Positions 196-34,590 of a stretch of DNA of 41,058 nucleotides are shown one piece after another. Where the stretch lies: positions 3,283 to 44,340 of the forward strand of contig MENI01000104.1 of assembly GCA_001768195.1 (NCBI GenBank), in the 5' to 3' direction. Every line of letters starts with the position of its first letter. The stretch's first letter is position 1. The notes under the pieces are model-generated. The model was not told the origin of the DNA. It was given only the letters and a program-made list of their open reading frames with translations, and did not search any database. Made by a program: the position numbers and the translations under genes. Source of the stretch: Bacteroidetes bacterium GWA2_40_15. GTDB taxonomy: Bacteria > Bacteroidota > Bacteroidia > Bacteroidales > VadinHA17.

Positions 196-332
196 ATCAA
201 CCACCCCGGCCGCAAAGGTACTTTGCAATACATTTTCTATCATTGTTCTGCGGCCACCCCTCCTTCAAAAGGAGGGGAAACTTATACGGATCTCTGGATT
301 TACAATACCAGTCTTAAGTTGACGCCAATGGG
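196..332 (+). repeat. DUF559-element arm A (3' arm)
   Basis: The arm begins with ATCAACCACCCCGGCCG (196-212), contains the hairpin CCCCTCCTTCAAAAGGAGGGG (257-277), and ends with the outer motif AAGTTGACGCC (316-326). Reverse complemented, it matches the arms at 7981-8137 and 12911-13044 over nearly its whole length. It lies 43 bp before the start codon of the first propeller gene, so it probably supplies the 5' leader of that transcript. A short open frame across it (145-378) ends over the downstream start codon and is repeat-derived. Confidence 0.85.
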
Positions 333-374: not shown

Positions 375-3300
375 ATGAACAGGATATTTAAAGGAATTTT
401 TTTCAACAGGTATATACTTATATCCTGCATGATTTTATTTCAAATATCTGTATCAGAATTGCATAGCCAGGAAACAAAACTCTTTCAACCTGTTCCTCCC
501 CAGAAATCAGGTATTACATTTAAAAATACAATTACCGAGAATGAGGAGGCAAATGCACTTACTCATGAAAACCTTTACAACGGAGGTGGTGTGGCCACAG
601 GGGATATCAACAATGACGGACTGGAGGATATATTCTTTATATCAAATATGGGATTCAACAAGCTCTACCTGAACCTCGGAGATCTGAAATTCAAGGATAT
701 TACAAAGAGTTCAGGCGTGGAGGGAAGAGCAGGATGGAAAACCGGAGTCACAATGGCAGACGTAAACGGGGATGGCCTTACCGACATTTATGTTTGCTTT
801 TCGGGTAAAGGATCGCCTGAACTAAGAAGAAATGAATTATACATTAATAAAGGTAACCTCAGATTTGAAGAGAAGGCGAAGGAGTTTGGAATTGATGACA
901 ACACCTATTCAACAATAGGAGCATTTCTCGATTACGATCTCGACGGGGACATTGATCTGTTCCTGGTTGCCACAAATGTAATTGTAATCAGGGGGATGGA
1001 TTTTGAGGATGCCCGCAAAGTAAATGATCCGTATGCAGGAGATAAACTATACAGAAATGACGGGAACCATTTTACCGATGTCACCCTCACATCGGGAATA
1101 ATTTCAAATGCAATGGGTTACGGACTGGGTGTGAATGTGTCAGATATTAATAAAGACGGATTGCCTGATATTTATGTGACCAATGACTATATAGAGCCTG
1201 ATTACCTCTATATCAATAACGGGGACGGGACTTTTACAAACCGGCTGACTGACTATATTCAGCATATTTCACAATCTGCAATGGGTTGTGAAATATCTGA
1301 TTTTAACAACGATACATGGCCCGACATATTTACTGCAGATATGCTCCCGGCCGACAACAGAAGGATCAAACTTCTCTACGGACCCGATAACTACATGCAG
1401 TATGCACTTGCTGTTATGGCCGGATATTACCACTCGAGCATGCGCAATATGCTTCAGATGAACAATGGCAATCACACTTTCAGTGAGATAGGACAGTTTT
1501 CTGGCATCTCAAATACAGACTGGAGCTGGGCACCTCTTTTTGCTGATTTTGATAACGATGGATGGAAAGATTTCTTTATCTCAAACGGATACTTCAAAGA
1601 TTATACTGACCGTGATTTCCTTAAATATAAAAACGACTATTTCAGTCAGCAGGCCAGAGCTAATACAAAGCCTGACACCTTTATGCTGACAAAATCTATG
1701 AAGTCTACCCCCGTACATAACTTCATATTCAAAAATAACAAGGATCTGACTTTCTCTAATAAAACAATTGAATGGGGGCTTGAGAAAAAAGGATTCTCAA
1801 CAGGTTCTGTATACTCCGATCTTGATAATGACGGAGATCTTGACCTGGTGATGAGCAATCAGAACGAAACAACATCACTATACAGAAATATGCTTCGCGA
1901 AACAAATCCTAAAGCTAACTATCTGAACATAAGACTTAAAGGATCAGGAAAAAACACGGCAGGACTGGGGAGTAAAGTATATCTTTATACAGGAAATGAG
2001 GTCCAGTACCTTGAGCAGTCACCATTTCATGGTTATCAGTCATCAGTTACCACCAATCTGCACTTTGGCCTTAATAACAGGGATTTTGCCGATTCCGTCA
2101 GGGTCGAATGGCCGGGCGGAAGAGTAAGCCGGCTTAAAAAGGTTAAAGCAAACCAGACAATAGTAATTGAAGAATCAGGGGAAAAACAAATTTCAATAAA
2201 ACCTTCTGCTACTTCTGCTGTTTTCTCATCTGTCGGGTCACTTGTACCCTATGAACATGTCGAATATGGTTCAAATGACTTCAAACGTCAGCCCCTGCTT
2301 CATTATATGCCATCACCGGTTGGTCCTGTGATAGCAATCGGCGATGTGAACGGGGACAAACTGCCTGACATATTTGCAGGAGGAGCCAAAGAGAGTCCGG
2401 GGAAACTGTTTGTTCAGTCAGCCGACGGGAAATTCAGGGCATCGCCATTTTTTAATTATAAAGAGGATTTCAACTGCACCGATGCTGATGCGTTATTCTT
2501 CGATGCCGATAATGATGGGGATCAGGATCTTTATGTAGTCAGCGGAGGTTATAATGATTATGCAAGAAGCGACAACGCTTTGCAGGACAGGCTCTATATT
2601 AATTCCGGCTCCGGTCGGTTTGCCAGAAGAGTGGATGCGCTTCCTCCCATGCCGGCATCAGGTTCATGCGTAAAGTCAGCTGACTTTGATAAAGACGGTG
2701 ACAATGACCTGTTTGTGGGGGGAAGATTAATACCAGGCGAATACCCCAGACCCCAGAAATCTTACCTTCTTGTAAATGATGGAAAAGGGAAATTCACAAA
2801 CAACCTTGAAACTCTTATTCCTGAGCTGAAATCAGGAGGTATGATAACTGATGCTGCCTGGGTCGATCTGAATAAGGACACATGGCCTGATCTTGTTGTA
2901 TGCGGGGAATTTATGCCAATCCGTATTTTCATAAATGAGAAAGGGAAAAAATTCACAGAGGCTACAAAATCATATTTTCCTCAATCCGATGGTGGATTAT
3001 GGAACCGCATTGCATTTGCTGACTTTGACAAGGATGGGGATCTGGATCTTGTTGCCGGGAACTGGGGTACTAATTCCCAGTTTAAATGCTCGCCCGAAAA
3101 ACCTATGCAGATGACATTCAAGGATTTTGACAATAACGGATCAGTGGATCCCGTACTGACATATTACATCGATGGCAAATCCTACCCATGGCCCAGCCGC
3201 GATGAGATCATAGCACAGATCCCGGTTCTCAGGAGAAAATTCCCTGACTACAAATCATATGCTGATGCCCAGCTGAAAGACATCTTCCAGGAGGGTGACC

Positions 3301-3701
3301 TGATAAATGCTGATGTGCTTACTGCAACTGAACTCAGATCGGTTTACTACCGGAACAATAACGGTAAATTTGAGAAACAGGCACTCCCGAATGAAGCCCA
3401 GTTCGCACCTGTATTTGCAATTGAGATACTTGATTACGACCAGGACGGGAATATTGATATGATCCTGGCAGGAAATCAGAACGCCGCATGTGTACGGCTT
3501 GGAGTTATTGATGCAAACTACGGACAACTCTTCAGGGGTGACGGTAAAGGCAATTTCAGGTATATCCCGCAATCGGTTTCAGGACTTTCATTAACCGGCG
3601 ATGTTAAATCTATGAAGATTATTACAGTCAGAAATATAAGCTATCTTATTGCCGGGATCAATAATCTTGGAATAGTTACATACAAACTAAATTCAAAATG
3701 A
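375..3701 (+). CDS. Secreted FG-GAP/VCBS propeller protein with ASPIC/UnbV domain (CRTAC1-like, ~1,100 aa)
   Basis: The protein has 1108 residues and a likely Sec signal peptide (about residues 1-32, ending near ELHSQ). It is an extracytoplasmic repeat protein with no enzymatic motif. Calcium-loop type FG-GAP/VCBS repeats of the form D-x-N-x-D-G-x-x-D recur throughout, for example GDINNDGLEDIFF and DLDNDGDLDLVMS. An ASPIC/UnbV domain lies at about 514-600. A second set of propeller repeats fills 620-1108, so the chain looks like two propeller units joined at the ASPIC domain. The stop overlaps the next start in ATGA (3698-3701), implying translational coupling to a paralogue. Relatives are common in Bacteroidota; their roles are unproven, and surface glycan or matrix binding is the usual guess. 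The start was chosen at the ATG that gives the signal peptide. Confidence 0.88.
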   Translation: MNRIFKGIFFNRYILISCMILFQISVSELHSQETKLFQPVPPQKSGITFKNTITENEEANALTHENLYNGGGVATGDINNDGLEDIFFISNMGFNKLYLNLGDLKFKDITKSSGVEGRAGWKTGVTMADVNGDGLTDIYVCFSGKGSPELRRNELYINKGNLRFEEKAKEFGIDDNTYSTIGAFLDYDLDGDIDLFLVATNVIVIRGMDFEDARKVNDPYAGDKLYRNDGNHFTDVTLTSGIISNAMGYGLGVNVSDINKDGLPDIYVTNDYIEPDYLYINNGDGTFTNRLTDYIQHISQSAMGCEISDFNNDTWPDIFTADMLPADNRRIKLLYGPDNYMQYALAVMAGYYHSSMRNMLQMNNGNHTFSEIGQFSGISNTDWSWAPLFADFDNDGWKDFFISNGYFKDYTDRDFLKYKNDYFSQQARANTKPDTFMLTKSMKSTPVHNFIFKNNKDLTFSNKTIEWGLEKKGFSTGSVYSDLDNDGDLDLVMSNQNETTSLYRNMLRETNPKANYLNIRLKGSGKNTAGLGSKVYLYTGNEVQYLEQSPFHGYQSSVTTNLHFGLNNRDFADSVRVEWPGGRVSRLKKVKANQTIVIEESGEKQISIKPSATSAVFSSVGSLVPYEHVEYGSNDFKRQPLLHYMPSPVGPVIAIGDVNGDKLPDIFAGGAKESPGKLFVQSADGKFRASPFFNYKEDFNCTDADALFFDADNDGDQDLYVVSGGYNDYARSDNALQDRLYINSGSGRFARRVDALPPMPASGSCVKSADFDKDGDNDLFVGGRLIPGEYPRPQKSYLLVNDGKGKFTNNLETLIPELKSGGMITDAAWVDLNKDTWPDLVVCGEFMPIRIFINEKGKKFTEATKSYFPQSDGGLWNRIAFADFDKDGDLDLVAGNWGTNSQFKCSPEKPMQMTFKDFDNNGSVDPVLTYYIDGKSYPWPSRDEIIAQIPVLRRKFPDYKSYADAQLKDIFQEGDLINADVLTATELRSVYYRNNNGKFEKQALPNEAQFAPVFAIEILDYDQDGNIDMILAGNQNAACVRLGVIDANYGQLFRGDGKGNFRYIPQSVSGLSLTGDVKSMKIITVRNISYLIAGINNLGIVTYKLNSK

Positions 3702-6700
3702 GATTATTGCGGACTCTTCTCTTTCCTGTCTCACTGATGATGCAGATAATCTTAAGTAATGCCTCATGCAACAACGACAAAGGAAAACTCTTTACAGCAC
3801 TGTCGCATAAAAGAACAGGAATCGATTTCAACAACATTATCCGGGAAAATGAAGAATTCAATATACTTGATTATGGATACCTGTTTAACGGAGCCGGAGT
3901 AGGTATCGGGGATATCAACAATGACGGATTGTCTGATATCTATTTCTGCGGCAACTTTGTGGAAAGCAGGCTGTACCTCAATAAAGGAAATTTCAGATTT
4001 GAAGATATTACAAATAAAGCCGGAGTCACAGGAGGAGGTAACTGGAATACCGGAGTATCAATGGCTGATATAAATGGTGATGGGTTTCTCGATATCTATG
4101 TTGTGAGCTCAACCGATGGAAGACCAAGGTACAGGAAGAATCTGCTTTACATAAACAACGGAGACCTGACTTTCAAGGAAAGCGCTGCAGCCTGGGGTAT
4201 TGATGATGACTCCTATTCAACTCACAGCGCATTCTTTGATTATGACAAGGATGGCGATCTCGACCTGTTTGTCATTAACCATTCTCTTGACAAATATGCA
4301 CACCCCGATTCGGCTCAGAAAAATATGCACGATCCGATTTATGAACATAAACTCTTCAAAAACACGGGGAATCGATTTGTTAATGCCAGTCAGGAGACCG
4401 GAATGAAAACGAATATTATGAACTTCGGACTGGGTCTGGCTATTGCTGATTTTAACAATGACGGATGGCCCGATATTTATATATGCAACGACTACTCCGA
4501 ACAGGACTATTTCTATATCAACCAGAAAAACGGAACATTCAAAGAGGAGCTTGAAAATTACTTTGACCATGTTTCCCTCTCCTCTATGGGCAATGATGCC
4601 GCCGATATAAATAACGACGGGTTTATTGACCTGTTCACACTCGACATGGATCCGGAAGACAATTATGAAAACAAGCTGGTGGCAGGCCCGGATAATTTTG
4701 ACCTTTACAGTATCCTGAAAAATACAGGCTTCTACAACCAGACTACCCGCAACATGTTGCAAATAAATAACGGTGGAAGATATTTCACCGATATAGGTCA
4801 ATATGCTGACATTTTTGCCACCAACTGGAGCTGGTCACCTCTTCTGTGCGATCTGGACAATGACGGCCTGAAGGATCTGTATGTAAGCAATGGCTATGGC
4901 AGGAACAGCACATATATGGATGCTATTATGGCCTCGGTACGCCAGATGTCGAAGCAGCAAAGAGGGATGCCTCATATGTCGAAGCTTGAGGTAGTTCAGA
5001 CCATACCTGCCACAATTCTTAAAAACTATATTTTCAGGAACAACGGCGATCATACTTTTACAAATGTCACTGAGACATGGGGTGATGAAGTGCCATCCCT
5101 GTCAAACGGAACTGCTTATGCCGACCTTGACAACGACGGTGACATGGATCTGGTCGCCAACGTTATCAACGGTTATGCAGGAGTTTACCGTAACAATTCT
5201 GAAAAACTGACAACAAATCACTACCTTAAAATAAAGTTCGATGGCACCGGACTGAACAAAGGAGGAATCGGTGCAAAAGTGGAGATCAGGTACAAGGACA
5301 AGATGCAGGTACAGGAATTCCAGCCATCGCGAGGATATATGTCGTCGATGAATCATGAATTGATATTCGGGCTGGGAGATGCAGAAGTTATTGATGAACT
5401 GAAGGTTATATGGCCGGATCTGCTTGAACAGTTACTGACCGGTATCAAAGCAGATCAGACAATAGTACTTCGTAACCGGGATGCAGAACCAACTGATCCC
5501 AAAGCATTACAGAAAATAAAACCCCTTCTTGTTCCTGCACCCGACAGCACCATTATTGACTTTAAACATATTGAAAATGATTATGTCGATTTCAGGAAAC
5601 AAATCCTGCTTCCTCATTTCCTTTCAACCCAGGGTCCGCATATTGCAAAAGGAGATGTGAACAACGACGGACTTGAAGACCTCTGGTTTAGCGGGGCTGC
5701 CGGAACTCCGGGAAAACTCTATATACAAAGGAAAGATGGTGCATTTGAATACAGCAGACAACAAAGTTTTGAAGCCGATAGTAATTGTGAAGATATTGGA
5801 GCTCAATTCTTCGATGCAGATGGCGACGGGGATATCGATCTGTATGTCGTCAGCGGCGGAAACGAATTTACTCCTCGGGCACCCGAACTGCAGGACAGGC
5901 TCTATCTTAATAATGGAAAGGGCAGCTTCACAAAAGCAACAAACAGACTGCCGGTCATGATAACAAGCGGATCATGTGTAAAGGCAGCAGATATCGACAA
6001 TGACGGCGACCCCGATCTTTTTGTGGGTGGCCGGCTCACCCCTGAGGCCTATCCCCTGTCGCCCCGAAGTTATATACTCGAAAATAACGGAAAAGGATAC
6101 TTTACCGACGTTACCGATAAGTATAACAGATCACTGACAGAAGCGGGGATGGTCATAGATGCCGTATGGGCCGATATCAACGGCGATAAACTGCCAGATC
6201 TCATAATTGCAGGAGAATGGATGAAGATCAGAGTTTTTAAGCACACCGGGGACGCACTGACTGAAATAACCGAGACCTGCGGACTGAAAGATACAGAGGG
6301 ATGGTGGAACTCAATTCATGCTGCTGATTTTGATAATGACAGGGACATAGATTTCATTGCCGGTAATATGGGATTGAATACCAGAATAAAGGTCTCTGTT
6401 TCAGAGCCGGCAACTATTCATGCAAAGGATTTTGATAACAACGGGACCATGGATGCCATAATGGGTTATTATATCCAGGGGGTAAGTTACCCCTTCTATG
6501 CAAAAGACGACCTCCAGGCTCAGCTACCGTTTATAAAGAATAAGTACCCTGATTATAAATCTTATTCTGATCAGACACTTAATGACATATTCTCCGCTGA
6601 AGAGCTGAAAGATGCACTTTTACTCAAGGCAACGCTTTTTGCCAGCTGTTATATTGAAAATAAGGGCAATGAACAGTTTGAAATAAGACCCCTGCCCCGC

Positions 6701-7012
6701 GAGGCCCAGTATTTTCCTGTTTATGGAATAGAGTCAGGTGATTATAATAATGACGGCCATACTGACATTATAGTGGCAGGCAATTTTACCGGGACCAGAG
6801 TCAAATTCGGAGAGCAGGATGCCGGAAAAGGATTGATGCTTACAGGAAATGGAAAAGGAGAGTTCACAAGCCTCAGTGACATGGAAAGCGGAATATTTAT
6901 AAAAGGTGAAGTGAGGGATATCGAAGAGGTAAAACTCTCAGACGGAAAAAGTATTTATGTTTTTGCCCTTAACAATAACAAGGCAAAATGCTATAGGATA
7001 AATGACAACTGA
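3698..7012 (+). CDS. FG-GAP/VCBS propeller lipoprotein with ASPIC/UnbV domain, paralogue of the upstream gene
   Basis: The protein has 1104 residues. It begins with a hydrophobic segment and a lipobox-like SNASC near residue 26, so it is probably an outer-membrane lipoprotein, whereas its upstream neighbour looks soluble. Domain order matches the neighbour: propeller repeats (DINNDGLSDIYF, DLDNDGDMDLVA), ASPIC/UnbV at about 507-595 (GGIGAKVEIRY, IFGLGD, IWPD), then a second propeller block to the end. Shared landmarks such as PDYKSY, NDIF and the Q-F-F-D-A-D repeat near 700 mark tandem duplication of one ancestor. The start overlaps the upstream stop by 4 bp. No transporter or SusC/D gene adjoins the pair, so the ligand cannot be guessed. 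Confidence 0.88.
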   Translation: MRLLRTLLFPVSLMMQIILSNASCNNDKGKLFTALSHKRTGIDFNNIIRENEEFNILDYGYLFNGAGVGIGDINNDGLSDIYFCGNFVESRLYLNKGNFRFEDITNKAGVTGGGNWNTGVSMADINGDGFLDIYVVSSTDGRPRYRKNLLYINNGDLTFKESAAAWGIDDDSYSTHSAFFDYDKDGDLDLFVINHSLDKYAHPDSAQKNMHDPIYEHKLFKNTGNRFVNASQETGMKTNIMNFGLGLAIADFNNDGWPDIYICNDYSEQDYFYINQKNGTFKEELENYFDHVSLSSMGNDAADINNDGFIDLFTLDMDPEDNYENKLVAGPDNFDLYSILKNTGFYNQTTRNMLQINNGGRYFTDIGQYADIFATNWSWSPLLCDLDNDGLKDLYVSNGYGRNSTYMDAIMASVRQMSKQQRGMPHMSKLEVVQTIPATILKNYIFRNNGDHTFTNVTETWGDEVPSLSNGTAYADLDNDGDMDLVANVINGYAGVYRNNSEKLTTNHYLKIKFDGTGLNKGGIGAKVEIRYKDKMQVQEFQPSRGYMSSMNHELIFGLGDAEVIDELKVIWPDLLEQLLTGIKADQTIVLRNRDAEPTDPKALQKIKPLLVPAPDSTIIDFKHIENDYVDFRKQILLPHFLSTQGPHIAKGDVNNDGLEDLWFSGAAGTPGKLYIQRKDGAFEYSRQQSFEADSNCEDIGAQFFDADGDGDIDLYVVSGGNEFTPRAPELQDRLYLNNGKGSFTKATNRLPVMITSGSCVKAADIDNDGDPDLFVGGRLTPEAYPLSPRSYILENNGKGYFTDVTDKYNRSLTEAGMVIDAVWADINGDKLPDLIIAGEWMKIRVFKHTGDALTEITETCGLKDTEGWWNSIHAADFDNDRDIDFIAGNMGLNTRIKVSVSEPATIHAKDFDNNGTMDAIMGYYIQGVSYPFYAKDDLQAQLPFIKNKYPDYKSYSDQTLNDIFSAEELKDALLLKATLFASCYIENKGNEQFEIRPLPREAQYFPVYGIESGDYNNDGHTDIIVAGNFTGTRVKFGEQDAGKGLMLTGNGKGEFTSLSDMESGIFIKGEVRDIEEVKLSDGKSIYVFALNNNKAKCYRINDN

Positions 7013-7980: not shown

Positions 7981-8137
7981 CATGAACTCACCCCCATGAC
8001 CCATAGCCGTCAACCTGAGAGTAGAATTGTAAATACAGAGGTTTGAAAAAGTTTCCCCTCCTTTTGAAGGAGGGGGTGGCCGCAGCACAATGATAGTCAA
8101 GGTATTACAAAGACCGGTTGCGGCCGGGGTGGTTGAT
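7981..8137 (-). repeat. DUF559-element arm B (3' arm), inverted relative to arm C
   Basis: Outer end CATGAACTCA (7981-7990) is an exact inverted match to TGAGTTCATG at 8849-8858. Further in come the outer motif CATAGCCGTCAAC (8002-8014), the hairpin CCCCTCCTTTTGAAGGAGGGG (8055-8075), and the inner motif CGGCCGGGGTGGTTGAT (8121-8137). The arm lies directly after the 3' end of the DUF559 gene and faces arm C on the other side. The hairpin, about 130 bp after the lipoprotein stop, may also end that transcript. Confidence 0.85.
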
Positions 8138-8153
8138 TGATGTATCAGTTCGA

Positions 8154-8556
8154 TTATTTTCTATTGATAACTTTACTTATCTCACTTTTTAAATATTCAG
8201 GTTCCTGGAATACAATTCTGTTTTCAAACCCTAATACAGTAAATCCAAATCCCTCAAGGTATTTATCCCTGCTTTCATCTTCCTCTATCTTATGATATTC
8301 ACCATGGGGATCTCCGTCAAGTATTGACAAGTTTTTCTGAAAAACAACAGAAGTCAGCAATGTAACTACCAATGCTGTATTGTCTTCTGAATTTTCTTCC
8401 ATCAAGTTTTTTTGATTTTAACATCTCCCATAATGCTGCCTCAGCCGAAGTGGACCTGTTCCTGAGAGATGATCTGAAAGATTTAAGTCCTTTTCTGTTG
8501 AAGAGGTTTTTGTTATTAATAGATATAAAGATAAAAAGAAAGAATAAATCAACCAC
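8154..8556 (-). pseudogene. Frameshifted DUF559 endonuclease-domain gene
   Basis: Two minus-strand frames together make one DUF559 protein. The first (from about 8556) carries LKSFRSSLRNRSTSAEAALW, KFRRQYSIGSYIADF and ends at a stop after SEKLV; the second continues with LDGDPHGEYHKIEEDESRD, YLEGFGFTVLGFENR and ends at 8154. The break is at about 8322-8325, where four bases stand between the GTC (Val) codon and the CTT of LDGD instead of a multiple of three. The family is Vsr/restriction-endonuclease-like: the Asp of IADF and the Asp of LDGD are the expected metal or catalytic region. No clear ATG precedes the first frame, only a GTG within the repeat border. It sits exactly between inverted repeat arms B and C. 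A sequencing or assembly error is an alternative to true inactivation. Confidence 0.8.
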
Positions 8557-8858
8557 CCCGGCCGGGAAATAAATCTTGTAAATATCAGATAATCAATTGT
8601 CCCGGCGCCTTCCCTGCGGCCTGGCTCTTCGCTAAATTTGCCCACTGGGCAAATTCTTAACGCTCAGCCCCCTTCAAAAGGAGGGGAAACTATTATGCAT
8701 GAACTGAATTTCGATAATAAAATCCGTTTGCCGTAATTGATCCTCCCTGTTTAACCTTTTTCAGACTCCCTAAGTTGACGGCTATGCCCCCTGATCCTCT
8801 CTTTGCGAAGCAGAGAGGGGGAATCCTGAGCGGAGGAAAGGAAGGGCATGAGTTCATG
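8548..8858 (+). repeat. DUF559-element arm C (5' arm)
   Basis: Inner motif ATCAACCACCCCGGCCG (8548-8564) is the exact inverse of 8121-8137. Bases 8592-8691 are identical, as I read them, to 13280-13379. This 5' arm contains a ~75 bp segment absent from arms A, B and D, including the palindrome AATTTGCCCA-C-TGGGCAAATT (8635-8655). The hairpin 8668-8686, outer motif AAGTTGACGGCTATG (8772-8786), a CCTCTCT/AGAGAGG hairpin (about 8794-8819) and terminal TGAGTTCATG (8849-8858) follow. The arm ends 2 bp from the stop codon of the radical SAM gene and could terminate that operon. Confidence 0.85.
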
Positions 8859-11226: not shown

Positions 11227-12900
11227 TTATTTAACCAGAATTCCGGTTCCCTGTAATATTGTAATATAACGATCAGCATCAATGTTTTTATATATCTCAA
11301 TAGTGCCATCTGACCACTTTATCCCGAGAAGATCTATCTTTTTGTTTTTGCCGAGGCCGATATGGAGCCTGGGGTCATTTGAAGAGAGGTAGCCTGTCGC
11401 CCACTGGTTTATAAGAACCTGCTTCATCTCTCCTGCAGTTACAGTTACCTTTGCACTTATTGCTGAAGCAGGACCATTCTGACCTTTAAGTGTAAGACCA
11501 AGCCAGTGGTTGGAGTTACCTCCGTCGTTTCTTAACACAGCCGTTGTTGCCTGTTTGTCAACATGGGATATGATAACATCAATGTCTCCGTCATTGTCAT
11601 AGTCAACCACAGCCAATCCCCGCCCCGACCGTTTTGTTTTAAAATATTCACCAAGCTCCTGCCCTGCATTTTTAAAATGCCCTTTACCATCATTCTCAAG
11701 CAACAGGGGATACTGAAGAATAAGCTCCTCTGCGGTACCGTTGGCTGCAATTATATCGAGGTCTCCATCATTATCGTAATCAAATAATACAGCTCCCCAG
11801 CTTCCTTTTCCTGACATATGTCCGGCAATTCCGCTCTTTTCAGAAATATCCTCAAATATGCCGTTGCCGAGTTTACGGTAGAGAGCCCCATATTCAAGAT
11901 CTGTAACAAGAATATCGATAAGCCCGTCACCATCTACATCTCCTATGGTGCCATGCATTGAACCGGAACCTATTCCCTTGCTGTTTGCCGCAACGCCACT
12001 GGCTACTGCAACCTCACTGAAAACTCCGTTGTCATTTCTGAAGAGGAAATTGAAGTGATGATCGTTTGCCTGGAAGATATCTATATCACCGTCATCATCA
12101 AAATCATATATTGTAAGCCCCATGCACTTTGAATCGGGATAGTACAGACCGGCTTTTTCAGTAACATCCTTAAATGTACCATCAGGCAGCTGTTCATAGA
12201 GCATGGAAGCCTGTCCCCTGTATTCGCTGGGATGGGGCATAATACCGGGACCTGCTGCAGAAACATAGGCAGGGTCAAAAGCGAGGAAATTTCCGACCAT
12301 AACATCTAGTCTGCCATCGAGGTTGTAATCCCAGAAAACAGCGCCAATACTCCATTTAACAAAGCCATTGAGTTTATCAGGTCCTCTGAGTCCGAGTGAT
12401 TCAGTAATATCGGTAAAGGTCCCGTCGCCATTATTCCGGCAAAATAGATTGGGCCCATAATTCAACAGGTAAAGATCCTGATCGCCATCGCTGTCATAAT
12501 CAACAGCTGCAGCCGCCATGCTCCAGTACCGGTCATTAATTCCTGACGCCTTTGTCACATCTGTAAATGTACCATCACCGTTATTTTTGTAAAGGGCATC
12601 GGGTGTATCTTTAAATACCTTCCCATCCGGATCGGAGACTCCTTCAATGTAGGTTCCGTTCATCATGAAAATATCCATCAGGTTATCGTTGTTGTAATCA
12701 AATACTGTGATCCCCGATCCGCTGCTTTCGAGGATGTTCACGTATGAGAAATCTCCTATGGTGTATTTGAAATCTATTTTTGTTTGTTTGCTGACTTCCC
12801 TGAAAGTGACCTGTTTCTTCTGAGCTGATACTTGAGTTTGAAAAAAGAGTAAAGAAAGAATTATCAGAAACCGGAATACGTTTAATCCTTTCCGGGGCAC
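11227..12900 (-). CDS. Secreted CRTAC1-like FG-GAP/VCBS protein with ASPIC/UnbV domain
   Basis: The likely start is the GTG at 12900, giving 557 residues with a good signal peptide (PRKGLNVFR, then FLIILSLLFF, cleavage after QTQVSA). The open frame continues upstream to an ATG at 13065, but those 55 residues (NHPGRK, PPSKGGE) are translated repeat arm D and would bury the signal peptide. No ATG exists between the repeat and the signal peptide, so the insertion may have replaced the native start. Calcium-loop propeller repeats follow (DYDSDGDQDLYLL, DVDGDGLIDILVT, DYDNDGDLDIIAA), then ASPIC/UnbV at about 465-550 (LKGQNGPASAISAKVTV, LHIGLGKNKKID). It leads a probable three-gene unit with the asparagine-synthetase homologue and the radical SAM gene. 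Confidence 0.85.
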   Translation of the reverse strand: MPRKGLNVFRFLIILSLLFFQTQVSAQKKQVTFREVSKQTKIDFKYTIGDFSYVNILESSGSGITVFDYNNDNLMDIFMMNGTYIEGVSDPDGKVFKDTPDALYKNNGDGTFTDVTKASGINDRYWSMAAAAVDYDSDGDQDLYLLNYGPNLFCRNNGDGTFTDITESLGLRGPDKLNGFVKWSIGAVFWDYNLDGRLDVMVGNFLAFDPAYVSAAGPGIMPHPSEYRGQASMLYEQLPDGTFKDVTEKAGLYYPDSKCMGLTIYDFDDDGDIDIFQANDHHFNFLFRNDNGVFSEVAVASGVAANSKGIGSGSMHGTIGDVDGDGLIDILVTDLEYGALYRKLGNGIFEDISEKSGIAGHMSGKGSWGAVLFDYDNDGDLDIIAANGTAEELILQYPLLLENDGKGHFKNAGQELGEYFKTKRSGRGLAVVDYDNDGDIDVIISHVDKQATTAVLRNDGGNSNHWLGLTLKGQNGPASAISAKVTVTAGEMKQVLINQWATGYLSSNDPRLHIGLGKNKKIDLLGIKWSDGTIEIYKNIDADRYITILQGTGILVK

Positions 12901-12908
12901 CCCCCACC

Positions 12909-13044
12909 CAATAGCCGTCAACTTAAGCTTAGTTTTTTGGCAGGAAAGAATGGAAAAAGTTTCCCCTCCTTTTGAAGGAGGGGTGGCCGCAGCACAATGA
13001 TAGTTAATGTATTGCAAAATTAGTTTGCGGCCGGGGTGGTTGAT
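12909..13044 (-). repeat. DUF559-element arm D (3' arm)
   Basis: Outer motif ATAGCCGTCAACTTAAG (12911-12927), hairpin CCCCTCCTTTTGAAGGAGGGG (12963-12983) and inner motif CGGCCGGGGTGGTTGAT (13028-13044) match arm B in the same order and strand. Its outer end abuts the signal-peptide codons of the CRTAC1-like gene, so it forms that gene's leader or extended amino terminus. Confidence 0.85.
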
Positions 13045-13067
13045 TTGTCTATCCGATCGATTCATTT

Positions 13068-13228
13068 TTTTTATTGAAAGCTTACCTTAAATCACTTTTT
13101 TATTCATGTTCCCGGAATACAAATATTTTTTCTCACCTTAATAAAATGAATCCCAAGCTCACCTGTAATTATTCTTGTCTTCAACTTTCTGTAGTTAATT
13201 TCAGTCTGAAAATAGCTCTCTGTCAATT
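13068..13228 (-). pseudogene. Decayed, amino-terminally deleted DUF559 remnant
   Basis: Read on the minus strand, this stretch follows the DUF559 gene from the LDGD region (AATTGACAG near 13228) to its 3' end, with GTATTCCGGGAACATGAAT opposite GTATTCCAGGAACCTGAAT of the fuller copy. The amino-terminal half of the gene is missing, and the LDGD region joins arm E directly. It resembles the remnant at 1-175 more than the fuller copy, for example in the shared GAAGACAAGAATAA stretch. It has no usable frame. Confidence 0.7.
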
Positions 13229-13235
13229 TAATTTA

Positions 13236-13390
13236 ATCAACCACCCCGGCCGGGAAATGAACATTGTAAAAAACAGATTATCAATTGTCCCGGCGCCTTC
13301 CCTGCGGCCTGGCTCTTCGCTAAATTTGCCCACTGGGCAAATTCTTAACGCTCAGCCCCCTTCAAAAGGAGGGGAAACTTTTACTACTCC
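13236..13390 (+). repeat. DUF559-element arm E (5' arm)
   Basis: Inner motif ATCAACCACCCCGGCCG (13236-13252), palindrome at 13323-13343 and hairpin 13356-13374 follow arm C. Bases 13280-13379 appear identical to 8592-8691. The outer GTTGACGG motif is missing on this side, and the stop of the TPR-CRTAC1 gene (13417) lies 27 bp further on. The hairpin may terminate that gene's transcript, which would separate it from the downstream CRTAC1/asparagine-synthetase/radical SAM unit. Confidence 0.85.
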
Positions 13391-13416: not shown

Positions 13417-16400
13417 TTATTTCACCTTCAACGCATTAAGATAGCCATCCCTGGTAACGATCCTGGTATTATACTCCTGGTGGTATTTCTTCAATTCAGG
13501 ATCATCAGGGTACTTATCCTTTTCTGAAGGCGGGTATGATGACATTCCATGATAAGGCAGCGGCATTACAGAGTTACCGAAAGCAGTATTCAGATCACCG
13601 TCCTTAACCCATCCCACACTCCTTATCAGATAGTCCCTCTTCCATCCTTTCTGTAACGGCGGCAGTTTTCTCTCATCAAAAGTAATTGTTGCTTCATCAC
13701 CTGCATTTGAAATTATATATCTATTATCGCTGGCGGTGATAAGGGGAAGTACATCGCCATAACGGGTATAATTACCCGGAAGATCTCTCCACATTGGCTC
13801 TTTATCTGTAACAGAATAATCGAACCAGTGAGGACCATAGCGCCCGCCTTTTCTGAAGCTCTTCGAAAATCCCCTGTAATGAAGGTCAGCAGAAACGGGT
13901 TCCATGGGTGTTGATACAACCGGGGCATCAGATAACCTGTCGGAAAAGAAGATATAATCCCAGTATATCTCCATATTTGTTCTGATCCTTATCCTGTAAT
14001 CGGAAGAAAGGAATTTACCTGTCAGGTCTGCAATCACTGTTTTGTCCTTACCCTGCGGAAATCCCAGATCATCTATTACTGTCTCCCATTCTCCTTTTTT
14101 ATTAATAACCTGTATCACTGGAGGTGTAACTTTCAATGTCTCTGACTGCGATAAAGCAAAATTGATGCTTGCATCAGTGGGGAATATCCATCCATTCAGA
14201 AATAGTATCAGGCCTCCCGGTTCTGCAATTTTCCCCGGATCAAGCACAAGGTCATGCATCTCTGTAATACCCTGGTATTTGTCAGTTTTGAAATCAGAGA
14301 GATACCTGTCATCTTTTTTGCTGATGAATTCAAGAACATCTCCGCCATCTGTACCCCTGGCTGAAGCAGGAAGAAATTTTTTTGAAACCGTATATAGCTT
14401 CAATCCCGGAAAAGGGGGTGGCGAAAATTGTTCAGGGACGTAAATATCGACTGAATCGGGATGATCTACTGCCACCAGATGCAGTTGATCAAGGTATATG
14501 GTTTCCCAGAGCTCAGAGGTAACCTGTATTGAGTATTTTCCTTTTTCCGGCTTCAGCAACTCCCCGGAAATCTTAAGGTAATCGTCGGAGGCATCGGCAA
14601 AAGCATATGCAGTTGTCCCTCCCATTATGCCAAGGGGCATTCCAAGAGCGCTACGCCACAGGATATCTTTGACAAAAACAAATTCATTTCCGTTCCAGGT
14701 ATAGAGGAACGGACATGAGCCTTTCAGTGTTTGCGCTTCAATGAGTGCCTGGTCAGTACCGGGGAAGAAAATATTCTGAGGGACACCGTTGGTCCAGGTG
14801 ATCCTTATAACATCTGCTACAGCCCTGTGACCGATACCAAAATGTATGTTCGGATCAGTGACAACAATTGTCTGATAAAGATTGCCTGAGCGTATCTCAA
14901 CTTTTGCACCGATACCGAAATGGTTATTCTTTGCACTGCCAGCCCTCAGCCCGACCAGTTTCATCCTTATGAAATGGTTAATATTACCGCCGTCATTCCT
15001 GAGAAGCGTTATTCCCCCGTTTACACCTGCCAGTACAATATCAAGGTCACCGTCATAATTGTAATCGAACAGTGCAACCTGATGTGCTGCTTTCACCTCG
15101 TCGGGAAGCAGATGCGAAACATCATTGAAACCGTCAATACCGTTGTTATGGAACAGGAATAAACCTCTTCCGCCGGCCTCAGCCGGCTCCCCTGCCATAA
15201 AAATATCGAGCGATCCGTCGTTGTCAAAATCTATAAAACATGCGTCGTGTATCCTGGCCTGCTTTGTTAAAGCAAAAATCTCACTTACACTGTTATCCCT
15301 TTCAAAAGATCCGGTGCGGGTATTCCTGAAAAGACGATGGACTCCACCCTCTGACGATGTGACCAGCAGATCGAGATATCCGTCGTTGGTATAATCCCCT
15401 GCCGATACAGATGATGAGCCTCCACTACTGACCAATCCACTCTTCTCTGTCTCATTCTTAAAAACACCCATTCGCTGATTAGAGTAGAAAATATCCGATT
15501 GATTACTATTTACTACAACCAGGTCAATATCCTCATCCTCATCAAAATCACCAAATACTGCATCGCGGCTGACCAGATTGCTATTAACCTGCTCCATCTT
15601 TTCTGACTGATCAGAGAATGTACCGTCGGCATTGTTCCTGAACTGCAGGTTATTTGTGGAACGCAACTCATACATATCGAGATCGCCATCATGGTCAAGA
15701 TCAAAGAACAGGGCCATATTACCTCCTGTTTTACTGCCTATTGCCGCCTTGGTAGTCACATCTTCAAATGTACCTTTTCCGGTATTCCGGTAGAGAATGT
15801 CACCTCCCTCTTTCACAATGTAAAGGTCGGGGTATCCATCGTTGTCAAAATCAACAAAGGTGGCTGAAGTCTCATTCCCTGAATGGTCAAGTCCCGACTC
15901 TGCTGTAACATCGGTAAATCTTCCCATGTCATTTTTGAACAGGTAGTGTTTGTAAGTTGAAGAGGCTTGATCATAGCTTCCGGCATATATATCAACATCG
16001 TCATCGTCATCATAATCAGATACTGCCAGGTGAGCTTTGAATCTGCTGTCCGTTGAAGCGCCTACTGCAGCAACCGGAATAATATCAAGACCTGCAGATG
16101 CTGTAACGTCTGAAAATGTTATTGCATCAAGGATGGATCTCTCTTCTGAGAATGCAAGGACAGCCTGTTCATCGAAGGTTATCAGGGGGAATCCAATCAA
16201 TGAACCTCCGGGGCCCTTCAGATCCATAATACCAGCCTGGTATGGTGATGTAACCTTAAGGAAGTTATTGAATACCGTAAAATTGAGAATTGCATTTTCA
16301 ATATCATTCCTTCTCAGGTCGCCTAAAGTCTTATCGAAGTATTCCACTGAAGGGCCAGGAAATTCTGGAAATTGTTGTCTGATTATTTCCAGCTGTTCAA

Positions 16401-16980
16401 CAGCTTTGTCCGGTTCACCGTTCTTTATAAAAACTTCAACCAGACCGAGCCTGGGTACAATATTGCCGGGCGCCAACTGAACCATTCTGGAAAGGCAGCT
16501 CTCATAATGCTTTTTTGAATCAGTGTCATCGCCTGACGAATAAAGCTCTGAAAGGTCATATAAGCTCTTTATATGATCCGGGGCAAAGACAAGGGCTTCA
16601 GTAAGTTCCGCAATAGCTTTATCTCTATTGTCACCCATCTCAAATACTGTAGCAAGGATAAGCCTGATATCAGGATCCTTTGGATCGAACTTTATGGCTT
16701 TTGCCAGTTGCTTTTCTGCCTCAGGATATTTTCCCATCCGGAGGTATGTAAGTCCGAGATTTGCATAACCGAATTTATCCCTGGGAGACAACTTTATGAA
16801 CTTTCTGAATTCTGTTTCAGCTTCTTCAAGCTTAAACTCTTCGAGGTATGCAAGCCCGAGTGTCTTAATTGACATCAGATCAAGGGCTTTCTGATTAATT
16901 TTTTCGTCGGAGCTCTTGCAGCTGTATAGAAAAATGAAACAAATTGCTGCAAATAACGTATAATAATATTTTGTACCCAT
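13417..16980 (-). CDS. TPR-CRTAC1 fusion lipoprotein with ASPIC/UnbV domain
   Basis: The protein has 1187 residues. The lipobox FLYSC places the lipidated Cys at 21. Residues about 30-205 are tetratricopeptide repeats (LGLAYLEEFKLEEAETEFRK, LGLTYLRMGKYPEAEKQLAK). A linker to about 290 precedes a VCBS/FG-GAP propeller (DYDDDDDVDIYAG, DFDNDGYPDLYIV, DYTNDGYLDLLVT) to about 690 and an ASPIC/UnbV-like module to about 770. The last 400 residues form another beta-rich region (LYTWNGNEFVFVKDILW) seen in TPR-CRTAC1 fusions. The protein would display TPR protein-binding and propeller surfaces outside the inner membrane. It ends the tight minus-strand gene series that starts at 27531, 70 bp after a LivK-type gene. 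Confidence 0.87.
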   Translation of the reverse strand: MGTKYYYTLFAAICFIFLYSCKSSDEKINQKALDLMSIKTLGLAYLEEFKLEEAETEFRKFIKLSPRDKFGYANLGLTYLRMGKYPEAEKQLAKAIKFDPKDPDIRLILATVFEMGDNRDKAIAELTEALVFAPDHIKSLYDLSELYSSGDDTDSKKHYESCLSRMVQLAPGNIVPRLGLVEVFIKNGEPDKAVEQLEIIRQQFPEFPGPSVEYFDKTLGDLRRNDIENAILNFTVFNNFLKVTSPYQAGIMDLKGPGGSLIGFPLITFDEQAVLAFSEERSILDAITFSDVTASAGLDIIPVAAVGASTDSRFKAHLAVSDYDDDDDVDIYAGSYDQASSTYKHYLFKNDMGRFTDVTAESGLDHSGNETSATFVDFDNDGYPDLYIVKEGGDILYRNTGKGTFEDVTTKAAIGSKTGGNMALFFDLDHDGDLDMYELRSTNNLQFRNNADGTFSDQSEKMEQVNSNLVSRDAVFGDFDEDEDIDLVVVNSNQSDIFYSNQRMGVFKNETEKSGLVSSGGSSSVSAGDYTNDGYLDLLVTSSEGGVHRLFRNTRTGSFERDNSVSEIFALTKQARIHDACFIDFDNDGSLDIFMAGEPAEAGGRGLFLFHNNGIDGFNDVSHLLPDEVKAAHQVALFDYNYDGDLDIVLAGVNGGITLLRNDGGNINHFIRMKLVGLRAGSAKNNHFGIGAKVEIRSGNLYQTIVVTDPNIHFGIGHRAVADVIRITWTNGVPQNIFFPGTDQALIEAQTLKGSCPFLYTWNGNEFVFVKDILWRSALGMPLGIMGGTTAYAFADASDDYLKISGELLKPEKGKYSIQVTSELWETIYLDQLHLVAVDHPDSVDIYVPEQFSPPPFPGLKLYTVSKKFLPASARGTDGGDVLEFISKKDDRYLSDFKTDKYQGITEMHDLVLDPGKIAEPGGLILFLNGWIFPTDASINFALSQSETLKVTPPVIQVINKKGEWETVIDDLGFPQGKDKTVIADLTGKFLSSDYRIRIRTNMEIYWDYIFFSDRLSDAPVVSTPMEPVSADLHYRGFSKSFRKGGRYGPHWFDYSVTDKEPMWRDLPGNYTRYGDVLPLITASDNRYIISNAGDEATITFDERKLPPLQKGWKRDYLIRSVGWVKDGDLNTAFGNSVMPLPYHGMSSYPPSEKDKYPDDPELKKYHQEYNTRIVTRDGYLNALKVK

Positions 16981-25836: not shown

Positions 25837-27531
25837 TTAGGGTTCTGTAACAGTCAATATCTGGTTTGCTTTCGTATTCTCTATTACCTGCACCTTACCT
25901 GAAGGCCATTTTATCTCAATTTTTTCGACAAGGTCATTCTTTGCGATTCCAAAATGCAACCTGTGGTCATTCTGCGAGAGATACCCGGATGTACTTTTCT
26001 TCTGGGTTGTCTGTACCTTCCCACCTGCTGATATTTTAACCCTTGATCCTATACCATCATGATTACCCGTAGTTCCTATAAGATTAATCATCAGCCAGTT
26101 ATTCATGTTACCCTTGTTGTTTCTCAGGAACATCCCCCGGCCATTCAGATTTGCTATATAGATATCCAGATCACCGTCATTATCATAATCACCAAGGCAG
26201 GCACCTCTTCCTACATGCTCCTCATGAAAATACGCTCCAAGGTCATTTGAAATATCCTTGAATTTTCCTTCACCCAGATTATCAAACAGCTGGTCTTCAT
26301 GCCCGTAAAGATGTTTCAGGGCGCCATTTGTTTTAAATATATCCACATCACCATCATTGTCATGATCAATAAATGCTGAGGTCCATCCGACAAACTGACC
26401 TGCTGCCATGGCAATTCCCGAAGGATATGACCGGTCGGCGAAAACCCCGTTACCGATATTCTGATATAATGAGCAATAGGTATCATCCGAAAGGAAAATA
26501 TCTATCAGTCCGTCGCTGTTAAAATCTGCAAAATCGACCGACATACTTACTGTTGCCTCTCCGGCCTGGCTGAATGCTGTGCCCGACATTGTTCCCCTGT
26601 CGGTGAATTTCTTACCGCCATCATTATGCCAGAGATAATTGAGAGTATGATCGTTGGCAACATATATGTCCATATAGCCATCATCGTCATAATCGACAGC
26701 ACCCACACCCATGGCCCTACCGTCAAGATCGAAGATGCCCATTTCACGGGTTACATCTGTAAATGTACCATCGCCATTGTTGCGATATAAGTAATCAGGT
26801 TCGGCGTCATATGCCATTGGTCCCGGAAAACCATCCGGGGCATAATAGTATTTATATTCCGGATCAAAACTCAGATAGTTACCAACGTAGATATCCAGAA
26901 GACCATCAAGATCATAGTCAAACCATACAGCTCCGATACTGCATTCCTTCAATCCTGCCACTCTGGCTTTTCTTGTAATATCGGTGAAAGTACCATTCCC
27001 GTTGTTCCTGTATAATATGTTGGCACCATAATTACATACATAGATATCAGGATATCCGTCATTGTTAAAGTCACCAATGGCAGCTCCCATCGAATAAGCC
27101 TGATTATCAATACCTGCTTTCCGAGAGACATCTTCGAAGGTTCCGTCACCGAGGTTGCGGTAAAGATGATTAAAAGGAAGTCCACTCGGTTTTTCACCCT
27201 TACTGAATCCATCAATCCAGGTCCCGTTGCTGAGGAACAGGTCAATATACCCGTCCTGGTCAAAATCGAGGAATGAGGCTCCCCCTCCGCTTGATTCGAT
27301 AATATTGTTAAGATGATCTGTCCCATTTCCGATGGAATGGATGAAATCAATCCCGATCTGCTTCCCTGTCTCCTGGAAGAAATCGTTATTTGGAGGGGGG
27401 GCTGTAAATGTTTGATTTTTGTTACCGGTATTACCTGAATTGCATCCTGAAAGTGTCAGAAAGATTAAGATAAAAAACATTAAATAACTGAAAATATTTA
27501 CATTACTGTAAATACTCTGATTTGTTTTCAT
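25837..27531 (-). CDS. CRTAC1-like FG-GAP/VCBS lipoprotein with ASPIC/UnbV domain
   Basis: The protein has 564 residues from the ATG at 27531. A start at 27558 is also open but would lie upstream of the predicted transcript start. The lipobox LSGC follows FFILIFLT. Propeller repeats include DFDQDGYIDLFLS, DFNNDGYPDIYVC, DYDDDGYMDIYVA and DHDNDGDVDIFK. The ASPIC/UnbV domain covers about 475-560 (LIGTTGNHDGIGSRVKISAGG, LHFGIAKNDLVEKIEIKWPSG). It is the first gene of the long minus-strand series and close in layout to the protein at 11227-12900. It is exported and probably calcium-stabilised; its ligand is unknown. Confidence 0.88.
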   Translation of the reverse strand: MKTNQSIYSNVNIFSYLMFFILIFLTLSGCNSGNTGNKNQTFTAPPPNNDFFQETGKQIGIDFIHSIGNGTDHLNNIIESSGGGASFLDFDQDGYIDLFLSNGTWIDGFSKGEKPSGLPFNHLYRNLGDGTFEDVSRKAGIDNQAYSMGAAIGDFNNDGYPDIYVCNYGANILYRNNGNGTFTDITRKARVAGLKECSIGAVWFDYDLDGLLDIYVGNYLSFDPEYKYYYAPDGFPGPMAYDAEPDYLYRNNGDGTFTDVTREMGIFDLDGRAMGVGAVDYDDDGYMDIYVANDHTLNYLWHNDGGKKFTDRGTMSGTAFSQAGEATVSMSVDFADFNSDGLIDIFLSDDTYCSLYQNIGNGVFADRSYPSGIAMAAGQFVGWTSAFIDHDNDGDVDIFKTNGALKHLYGHEDQLFDNLGEGKFKDISNDLGAYFHEEHVGRGACLGDYDNDGDLDIYIANLNGRGMFLRNNKGNMNNWLMINLIGTTGNHDGIGSRVKISAGGKVQTTQKKSTSGYLSQNDHRLHFGIAKNDLVEKIEIKWPSGKVQVIENTKANQILTVTEP

Positions 27532-27557
27532 AATGTCAGGGTTGTTGGGTATCAACA

Positions 27558-27592
27558 CAAACTTATTTAATTCTTACATTAAAAAAGTCAAA
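27558..27592 (-). promoter_or_regulatory. Promoter for the minus-strand gene series
   Basis: On the minus strand, TAAGTTTG (27565-27558) fits the Bacteroidota -7 box TAnnTTTG exactly, and TTTG (27592-27589) stands 23 bases upstream, slightly more than the usual 19-21. The transcript would start near 27552, about 20 bp before the ATG at 27531. Confidence 0.5.
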
Positions 27593-34462: not shown

Positions 34463-34590
34463 CATAGCCGTCAACCTAATCGTAATTTTATGGTAGAATA
34501 GAATGGTATAAGTTTCCCCTCCTTTTGAAGGAGGGGAAACTTTTTCTAGTCCCCTTATCTACAATACTATTCTTAAGTTAACGCCTAGGC
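34463..34590. repeat. DUF559-element derivative F: outer arms only
   Basis: CATAGCCGTCAAC (34463-34475) and TTAAGTTAACGCC (34573-34585) are the outer motifs of the element in inverted orientation. The arms meet directly at the hairpin, and the inner CCACCCCGGCCG motifs and the DUF559 gene are absent. The left flank resembles arm D and the right flank resembles arm A. Confidence 0.8.
34510..34542. terminator. Bidirectional hairpin between GH92 and GH3
   Basis: AAGTTTCCCCTCCTT, a 3-base loop, and AAGGAGGGGAAACTT form a perfect 15-bp stem followed by a short T run (34541-34545). It lies 63 bp past the GH92 stop and 110 bp past the convergent GH3 stop, so the repeat probably serves as a terminator for both. 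Confidence 0.6.

Follow-up and report, generated by a model that had tools for sequence, protein, structure and literature searches.

DUF559 genes are associated, across phyla, with palindromic units that carry an intrastrand-triplex code and that match at the two ends of a gene, an association that we regard as secure; in the genome analysed here about 50 cores lie between paired arms of such units, and deletion derivatives are found among them. Recognition, cutting and spreading of the units by DUF559 would be the most economical reading, and we judge it somewhat better than evenly probable that DUF559 and its triplex hairpins form an element in which DUF559 is the cognate nuclease spreading repeats of the PIT/BoxC/TM class. 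The triplex hairpin structure itself has already been described; what is new is the tie to DUF559. Triplex repeats of more than 260 genomes have so far been without a gene explaining their spread (PMC4666352), and the DUF559 link makes this question testable: as DUF559 is often framed by triplex-capable repeats, it is a first suspect for spreading them.

The window copy and its family in the genome

The window, that is, the whole stretch of 41,058 nucleotides that was analysed, corresponds to positions 3283-44340 of contig C104 in a draft genome of 4.77 Mb and 127 contigs. Its copy at 7981-8858 is a decayed representative of a family, here referred to as family 1, that has about 100 hairpins genome-wide (Table 1).

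Table 1. Layout of the window copy and of further family-1 copies, in window positions
Feature	Position	Strand	Remark
CATGAACTCA, left 10-bp end	7981-7990		Pairs with 8849-8858; the same ends also accompany DUF559 genes of L111 and L145
CATAGCCGTCAAC, left terminal repeat	8002-8014	+	Common to IS4-like insertion sequence
Left outer hairpin, CCCCTCCTT-TTG-AAGGAGGGG	8055-8075	+	Pyrimidine and purine strands of triplex unit
Second hairpin in turn	8078-8125	+	Between purine strand and tail; stem GGCCGCA/TGCGGCC
Left inner motif	8121-8137		
Left tail, GGGGTGGTT	8126-8134	+	Mirror of AAGGAGGGG, T over A; proposed third strand
DUF559 (Vsr-like endonuclease) pseudogene	8140-8547	-	Frameshifted; locus L150
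Right inner motif	8548-8564		
Right tail	8551-8559	-	AACCACCCC on + strand
Right turn	8560-8667	-	With long alternative hairpin-bearing stretch
Right outer hairpin	about 8666-8686	-	Variant CCCCCTTCAAAAGGAGGGG
GTTGACGGCTATG, right terminal repeat	8774-8786	-	Common to IS4-like insertion sequence
CTCTCTTTGCGAAGCAGAGAGGGGG hairpin and TGAGTTCATG end (8849-8858)	8797-8858		Like second DUF559 family
Right part of another family-1 copy	196-330		Inner motif, hairpin, terminal repeat (2 mismatches); left part outside window
Short-core family-1 copy	12910-13374		Left terminal repeat, two hairpins, DUF559 remnant (L151 core)
Gene-less copy	34463-34590		One hairpin between CATAGCC-type end and more diverged end

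An earlier, sequence-only reading had described the copy at 7981-8858 as a DUF559 gene framed by several layers of inverted repeats. The repeats are real, and its motif sequences and coordinates for this copy were right, the motifs exceeding chance by far in the whole genome against reversed-pattern controls, but several details require correction. DUF559 sequence does lie between the repeats, although the gene is frameshifted, and the hairpin said to stand on both sides is present on the left, whereas the right side has a variant with a long extra hairpin-bearing stretch inside. The exact 10-bp ends had been thought to recur with other copies; each was found once in the window, and therefore they do not. 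The full ordered set proposed at 1-332 retains its inner motif, hairpin and terminal repeat but is cut by the window edge, that at 12909-13390 corresponds to a copy whose right CATAGCC-type end is absent within 2 mismatches, and the gene-less set at 34463-34590 has the CATAGCC-type end but a single hairpin, its other end being more diverged.

In the whole genome, the hairpin CCCCTCCTTTTGAAGGAGGGG, with at most 3 mismatches, is matched 97 times on one strand and 102 times on the other (reversed-pattern control, 0), the inner motif with up to 2 mismatches has 118 (control, 1), and PF04480 (DUF559) gives 32 matches, many of which are fragments or contain stops. Reading of 80 stretches of the genome, mostly around motif matches, revealed a regular layout, in which a hairpin is followed about 65 bp on by the inner motif, the core, a second inner motif and, about 61 bp on, a second hairpin. 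Fifty-two cores lie between paired arms, 50 of them distinct, since at two loci overlapping readings were counted separately. Core length is 410-520 bp in nine, 1407 bp in one and less than 300 bp in 42. DUF559 protein is matched by 46 of the 52, including 36 of the 42 short ones (tblastn, E 0.01), so that arms independent of any DUF559 sequence, named by the earlier reading as a finding that would count against it, are the exception. The matches of the short cores cover different parts of the protein, and the short copies are therefore mostly internal deletion derivatives; cores retaining an open DUF559 frame are found at other sites in the genome (L082, L117, L137 and L147).

The 1407-bp core (L081, C4:34514-36084) belongs to family 1 and is interrupted by a transposase-like gene, which we take to be of the IS630 type. 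The window also encodes very large open reading frame products rich in DxDxDG-like repeats (375-3701, 3698-7012, 11227-13065, 13417-16980 and 25837-27558), presumably proteins of the FG-GAP/VCBS or ASPIC type.

The triplex unit and its association with DUF559

A unit comprises two arms, the first of pyrimidines and the second of purines, with a loop between them, and then a turn and a purine-rich tail that can fold onto the purine arm again. In the window family the 3' arm of the outer hairpin is AAGGAGGGG, and the tail directly before the core, GGGGTGGTT, is the same string reversed, with T replacing A. In the purine-motif triplex code an antiparallel third strand places G over G and either A or T over A; read against this code, the hairpin and the inner motif are one unit with a predicted intrastrand-triplex fold. 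Both strings are kept in 96 arms, with a second hairpin between them (stem of at least 6 in 90, with several stem sequences). This hairpin, usually 49 nt, forms the turn in the window family, and elsewhere the turn is 3 nt long in 90 of 112 units (best 80 of 580 loci). Hairpin and tail change together in relatives, as judged by eye, for example a CTCCTCC/GGAGGAG stem with a GGAGGTGG tail. The alternative that the tail is a direct copy of the arm, forming an alternative hairpin, was rejected, as the mirror code wins by 97 to 33 among 249 asymmetric hairpins of the best 80 of 580 loci, a count in which near-symmetric arms leave 119 tied and for which the mirror rule had first been spotted by eye on the same 80 loci. 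Of the triplex units at these loci, 48 pass the direct code too.

Intrastrand triplex motifs are abundant and, as repeats, known in more than 260 genomes, with TTA and CCG named as second loops (Holder et al. 2015, PMC4666352), and archaeal motifs able to form a triplex or G-quadruplex have also been reported (PMC8044849). The units described here share with the PIT/BoxC/TM class a hairpin with an antiparallel purine third strand, a G/C-rich, intergenic nature, an arrangement in inverted pairs and, outside the window family, usually a second loop of 3 nt (for example TTA or CCG); the hairpins of what the sequence-only reading called a candidate undescribed mobile element are thus of a known structural class (PMC4666352). 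They differ in being tied to DUF559, whereas the class was described without any gene, and in the second hairpin in the turn of the window family, the 2015 search having used loops of 1-6 nt (PMC4666352). Triplex formation in vitro was demonstrated for E. coli TM repeats, the fold of the window family being a prediction; the 2015 survey found no mobility activities around E. coli triplex sites, and its text contains none of the words 'endonuclease', 'DUF' or 'Vsr' (PMC4666352).

The association with DUF559 was examined at the best 80 of 580 DUF559 loci found in species genomes with a single query, which are not an even sample; their record titles place them in more than ten phyla, with one archaeon among them. 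At these loci, the density of units is 2.07 per kb in the sequence next to DUF559 and 0.072 per kb at distances above 900 bp, and block-shuffled flanks have none. At least one unit is present at 56 of the 80, and both sides have one at 31. DUF559 genes elsewhere that lack such flanks, which the sequence-only reading had likewise set against its idea, are thus in the minority among these best 80 of 580, but the 24 loci without a unit, and the 49 with at least one empty side by the criterion used, speak against DUF559 as mobiliser. Among intergenic stretches of the same best 80 of 580 loci, six of which contributed no adjoining stretch, a unit was found in 73 of 126 adjoining DUF559 and in 3 of 87 others (greedy gene call); a harsher masking of open reading frames gave 12/26 against 15/82 (p 0.008) and was replaced because most DUF559 flanks were masked.

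The two sides of a gene are also related to each other. An inverted repeat scoring at least 30 joins both DUF559 sides (350-bp flanks) at 49 of 74 loci, six of the best 80 of 580 having too little flank, compared with 3 of 264 displaced controls from the same loci and 10 of 1480 shuffles. Mismatched partners, the left side from one locus and the right from another, reach this score in 85 of 580 cases, and part of the signal is therefore shared unit sequence. In the 31 two-sided loci among the best 80 of 580, the unit pair is inverted in 23, and an identical purine arm is present at both ends in 14, against 0.94 expected with shuffled partners; turn types did not split cleanly by gene side. Protein distance and unit distance are correlated across the best 80 of 580 loci (r 0.27, N 56, 0/2000 permutations). 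On plasmids, 5 of 10 DUF559 loci have a unit at looser settings, the others showing plain C/G-rich hairpins on reading.

A DUF559 match was found in 59 of 99 genomes searched, the own genome included. In a separate comparison of 59 genomes of the same genus, CCCCTCCTT(N2-5)AAGGAGGGG hairpins are commoner in 17 with a close DUF559 than in the other 42 (Mann-Whitney p 1e-5), the 17 having been chosen by hand (E up to about 3e-25) and three genomes with 58-65% remnants having been left among the 42. Any such hairpin is present in 16 of the 17 and in 18 of the 42; these 18 same-genus genomes with a hairpin yet without a close DUF559, and the one of the 17 without a hairpin, argue against DUF559 as mobiliser.

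Insertion-sequence ends and other candidate mobilisers

The outer CATAGCCGTCAAC layer is the repeat with which an IS4-like insertion sequence of the DDE type terminates: in relative G057 the same ends close a complete copy, standing on both sides of a frame of 464 codons that encodes a DDE_Tnp_1 domain, and a 10-bp duplication, CCCTAAATCC, lies outside both ends. Of the 99 genomes, 29 contain the 20-bp end with no more than 2 mismatches, some of them as single and possibly chance matches. In the own genome, 23 copies retain both CATAGCCGTCAAC-type ends, and five of these have exact 10-bp direct repeats (GGGCAAGCCC, CCCCAAGGGG, CCCCTAACCC, CCCTTGGGGG and CCTTTGAAGG); two further two-ended copies have, by eye, 10-bp repeats with one mismatch, and no 10-bp duplication was seen at the window copy. 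Four of the five exact duplications are small C/G-rich palindromes, some reading like the tips of other hairpin units. The copies with such ends and duplications are thus MITE-type insertions; the IS4-like transposase most probably made the duplications and is likely to be behind at least some of the copies in this genome. As the target duplications belong to the IS4-type ends, they do not speak for DUF559.

The sequence-only reading was right that DUF559 and the hairpins belong together, but its single nested terminal structure for all layers was abandoned: the CATAGCC layer is the IS4-like terminal repeat, and the 10-bp ends look like those of another DUF559 family. The CATGAACTCA layer encloses DUF559 sequence in L111 and stands on one side of it in L145, and the CATGAACTCA/TGAGTTCATG layer is probably the remains of this second DUF559/hairpin family, which the window copy appears to have entered.

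The whole arrangement could instead be a passenger in an IS4-family MITE, in which the IS4-like transposase, acting on the CATAGCCGTCAAC ends, would alone spread the repeats, with DUF559 and the hairpins as cargo. The complete insertion sequence of G057 and the target duplications argue for this, as do other interiors between the same ends, such as a Y1 gene with REPs, and the likeness to IS4-family insertion sequences and MITEs extends to both the ends and the 10-bp duplications of family-1 copies. It accounts, however, for the outer layer only, and not for the inner units or other phyla, leaving the DUF559-unit link there, E. coli ycjD and the matched end units unexplained. The transposase also had no match in the own assembly, an empty return that is weak evidence, though ends like both IS ends are visible at the contig ends of C11 and C85, each found once. 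We consider this alternative unlikely.

RAYT/REP elements consist of a Y1 transposase with palindromes, and the comparison with them drawn by the sequence-only reading was a good lead: both are small nuclease genes between inverted palindromes with many gene-less copies. They differ in that DUF559 elements have another enzyme fold, other palindromes and a triplex tail. That a Y1 (RAYT/REP-type) transposase itself moves the hairpins is highly improbable. Y1 has five matches in the genome, one of them inside a family-1 element (L154), and another Y1 gene lies between the same IS ends in G032; yet the three of the five whose surroundings were read have other palindromes of their own, for example CCGTTGGCTTCAGCCAACGG, and palindromes of this sort separate the nested gene from the DUF559 arms. 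Y1/RAYT was therefore rejected as mobiliser. DUF559 itself belongs to a different enzyme family.

The IS4-type ends also enclose other interiors. In L154 (C67 of the own genome) and L327 (C205 of G032) they surround Y1 genes accompanied by REP-like palindromes of their own, and L316 and L345 (G070) are short elements with IS4-type ends and REP-like interiors, L345 reading as flanked by CGCATGTGCG on both sides.

The DUF559 nuclease and its proposed role in spreading the units

An intact copy of DUF559 scores 115 bits against PF04480 (curated cut-off 20.6), and the closest solved structure is 3hrl by sequence and 3r3p by profile. For a structure model of a Bacteroidales DUF559 domain, built from 37 sequences (mean pLDDT 79), the top five matches include 3hrl and the homing endonuclease I-Bth0305I (3r3p) as well as, with a weaker match, Vsr (1cw0); the model predicts a Vsr/PD-(D/E)XK fold. 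I-Bth0305I, the nuclease of a mobile intron, is the closest characterised relative by profile and fold; unlike it, DUF559 has no intron or intein seen around it. We know of no hairpin ends for I-Bth0305I. Six unsaturated pairs of related DUF559 genes have dN/dS of 0.07-0.16, from a set of 12 coding sequences of which six were dropped (wrong strand or stops) and with 9 of the 15 remaining pairs saturated.

By 2005, YcjD had been classified with the PD-(D/E)XK superfamily, close to Vsr (PMC1189080), and Caulobacter VsrA, a DUF559 protein that triggers a DNA-damage response in a methyltransferase mutant, has been interpreted as a very-short-patch mismatch-repair nuclease (PMC12907096), which counts against DUF559 as mobiliser. 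DUF559 might thus be a host Vsr-like repair nuclease, with triplex repeats nearby by chance or through common insertion hot spots, and the modelled resemblance to Vsr would also fit. This is improbable, since the units match at both gene ends and follow protein distance, units are rare in the remaining intergenic sequence at DUF559 loci (3/87 stretches; best 80 of 580) and many DUF559 copies in this genome are broken. In the open-access literature, as far as titles and the starts of abstracts tell and with subscription papers and preprints outside its scope, no paper naming DUF559 concerned mobile elements; nothing there combined DUF559 with inverted repeats and transposition, none joined DUF559 or ycjD with an intrastrand triplex, and none of the 25 best-ranked of 164 papers named both ycjD and BoxC.

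In E. coli K-12 MG1655, ycjD is the DUF559 gene between sapF and fabI (YcjD, 167 bits against PF04480), and downstream of it stands CCCTCGCCCC-TCT-GGGGAGAGGG-TTA-GGGTGAGGGG, with a perfect mirror tail and one stem mismatch; another E. coli strain has two units, in opposite orientation, downstream of the gene. Of 5426 E. coli genomes, 3365 contain a match to a ycjD sequence. Two strains without it were examined (L288 and L291), in which an RND efflux operon lies beside fabI, and therefore these offer no clean element boundary. A control E. coli gave no match in the first DUF559 search, either because that strain is without the gene or because the match was missed.

In the model that we favour, the element would consist of a Vsr-like (PD-(D/E)XK superfamily) endonuclease gene between two inverted triplex units. 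A replication fork or repair tract would expose the G-rich strand, upon which the unit may fold; DUF559 would recognise the folded unit, or a target palindrome resembling it, and nick or break the DNA, and repair from the element-bearing copy would spread the unit, either together with the gene or on its own. Units that lack the gene would then remain as interspersed repeats, and in this genus, where the whole unit also lies between IS4-like terminal repeats, the transposase would explain at least part of the copying. More tentatively, DUF559 and triplex hairpins may constitute minimal mobile elements spanning phyla, whose nuclease recognises the triplexes at its own ends and of which PIT/BoxC/TM of E. 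coli and hundreds of genomes would be the gene-less progeny. If true, a Vsr-like nuclease would join the enzymes suspected of spreading palindromic repeats, DNA triplexes would have a suggested biological role, and a widespread family of unknown function would have a candidate substrate; with ycjD beside a triplex repeat, direct tests are possible in E. coli.

No clean boundary of an element without IS ends was found in Sinorhizobium, Sphingobium or the two E. coli strains, which argues against the mobiliser reading: a Sinorhizobium 'empty site' is in fact an internal DUF559 deletion, and the Sphingobium junction is rearranged, a second gene being missing too. Mobility in Deinococcus and Sphingomonas is suggested by gene order. 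Two Deinococcus plasmids have similar DUF559 elements at different hpa cluster junctions, and the hpaE/oxidoreductase junction contains a DUF559 element in one Deinococcus and overlapping genes in the other. The sufB-sufC junction contains a DUF559 element in Sphingomonas; in Azospirillum sp. B510 and Xanthomonas sacchari it has no gene and keeps C/G-rich hairpins. The same junction in A. lipoferum (L292:813-1431) is occupied by a GIY-YIG nuclease gene between inverted CGTCATCCCCGCGAAGGCGGGGATCCAG-type repeats, which are different from those of DUF559 and perhaps mark another small nuclease with its own palindromes.
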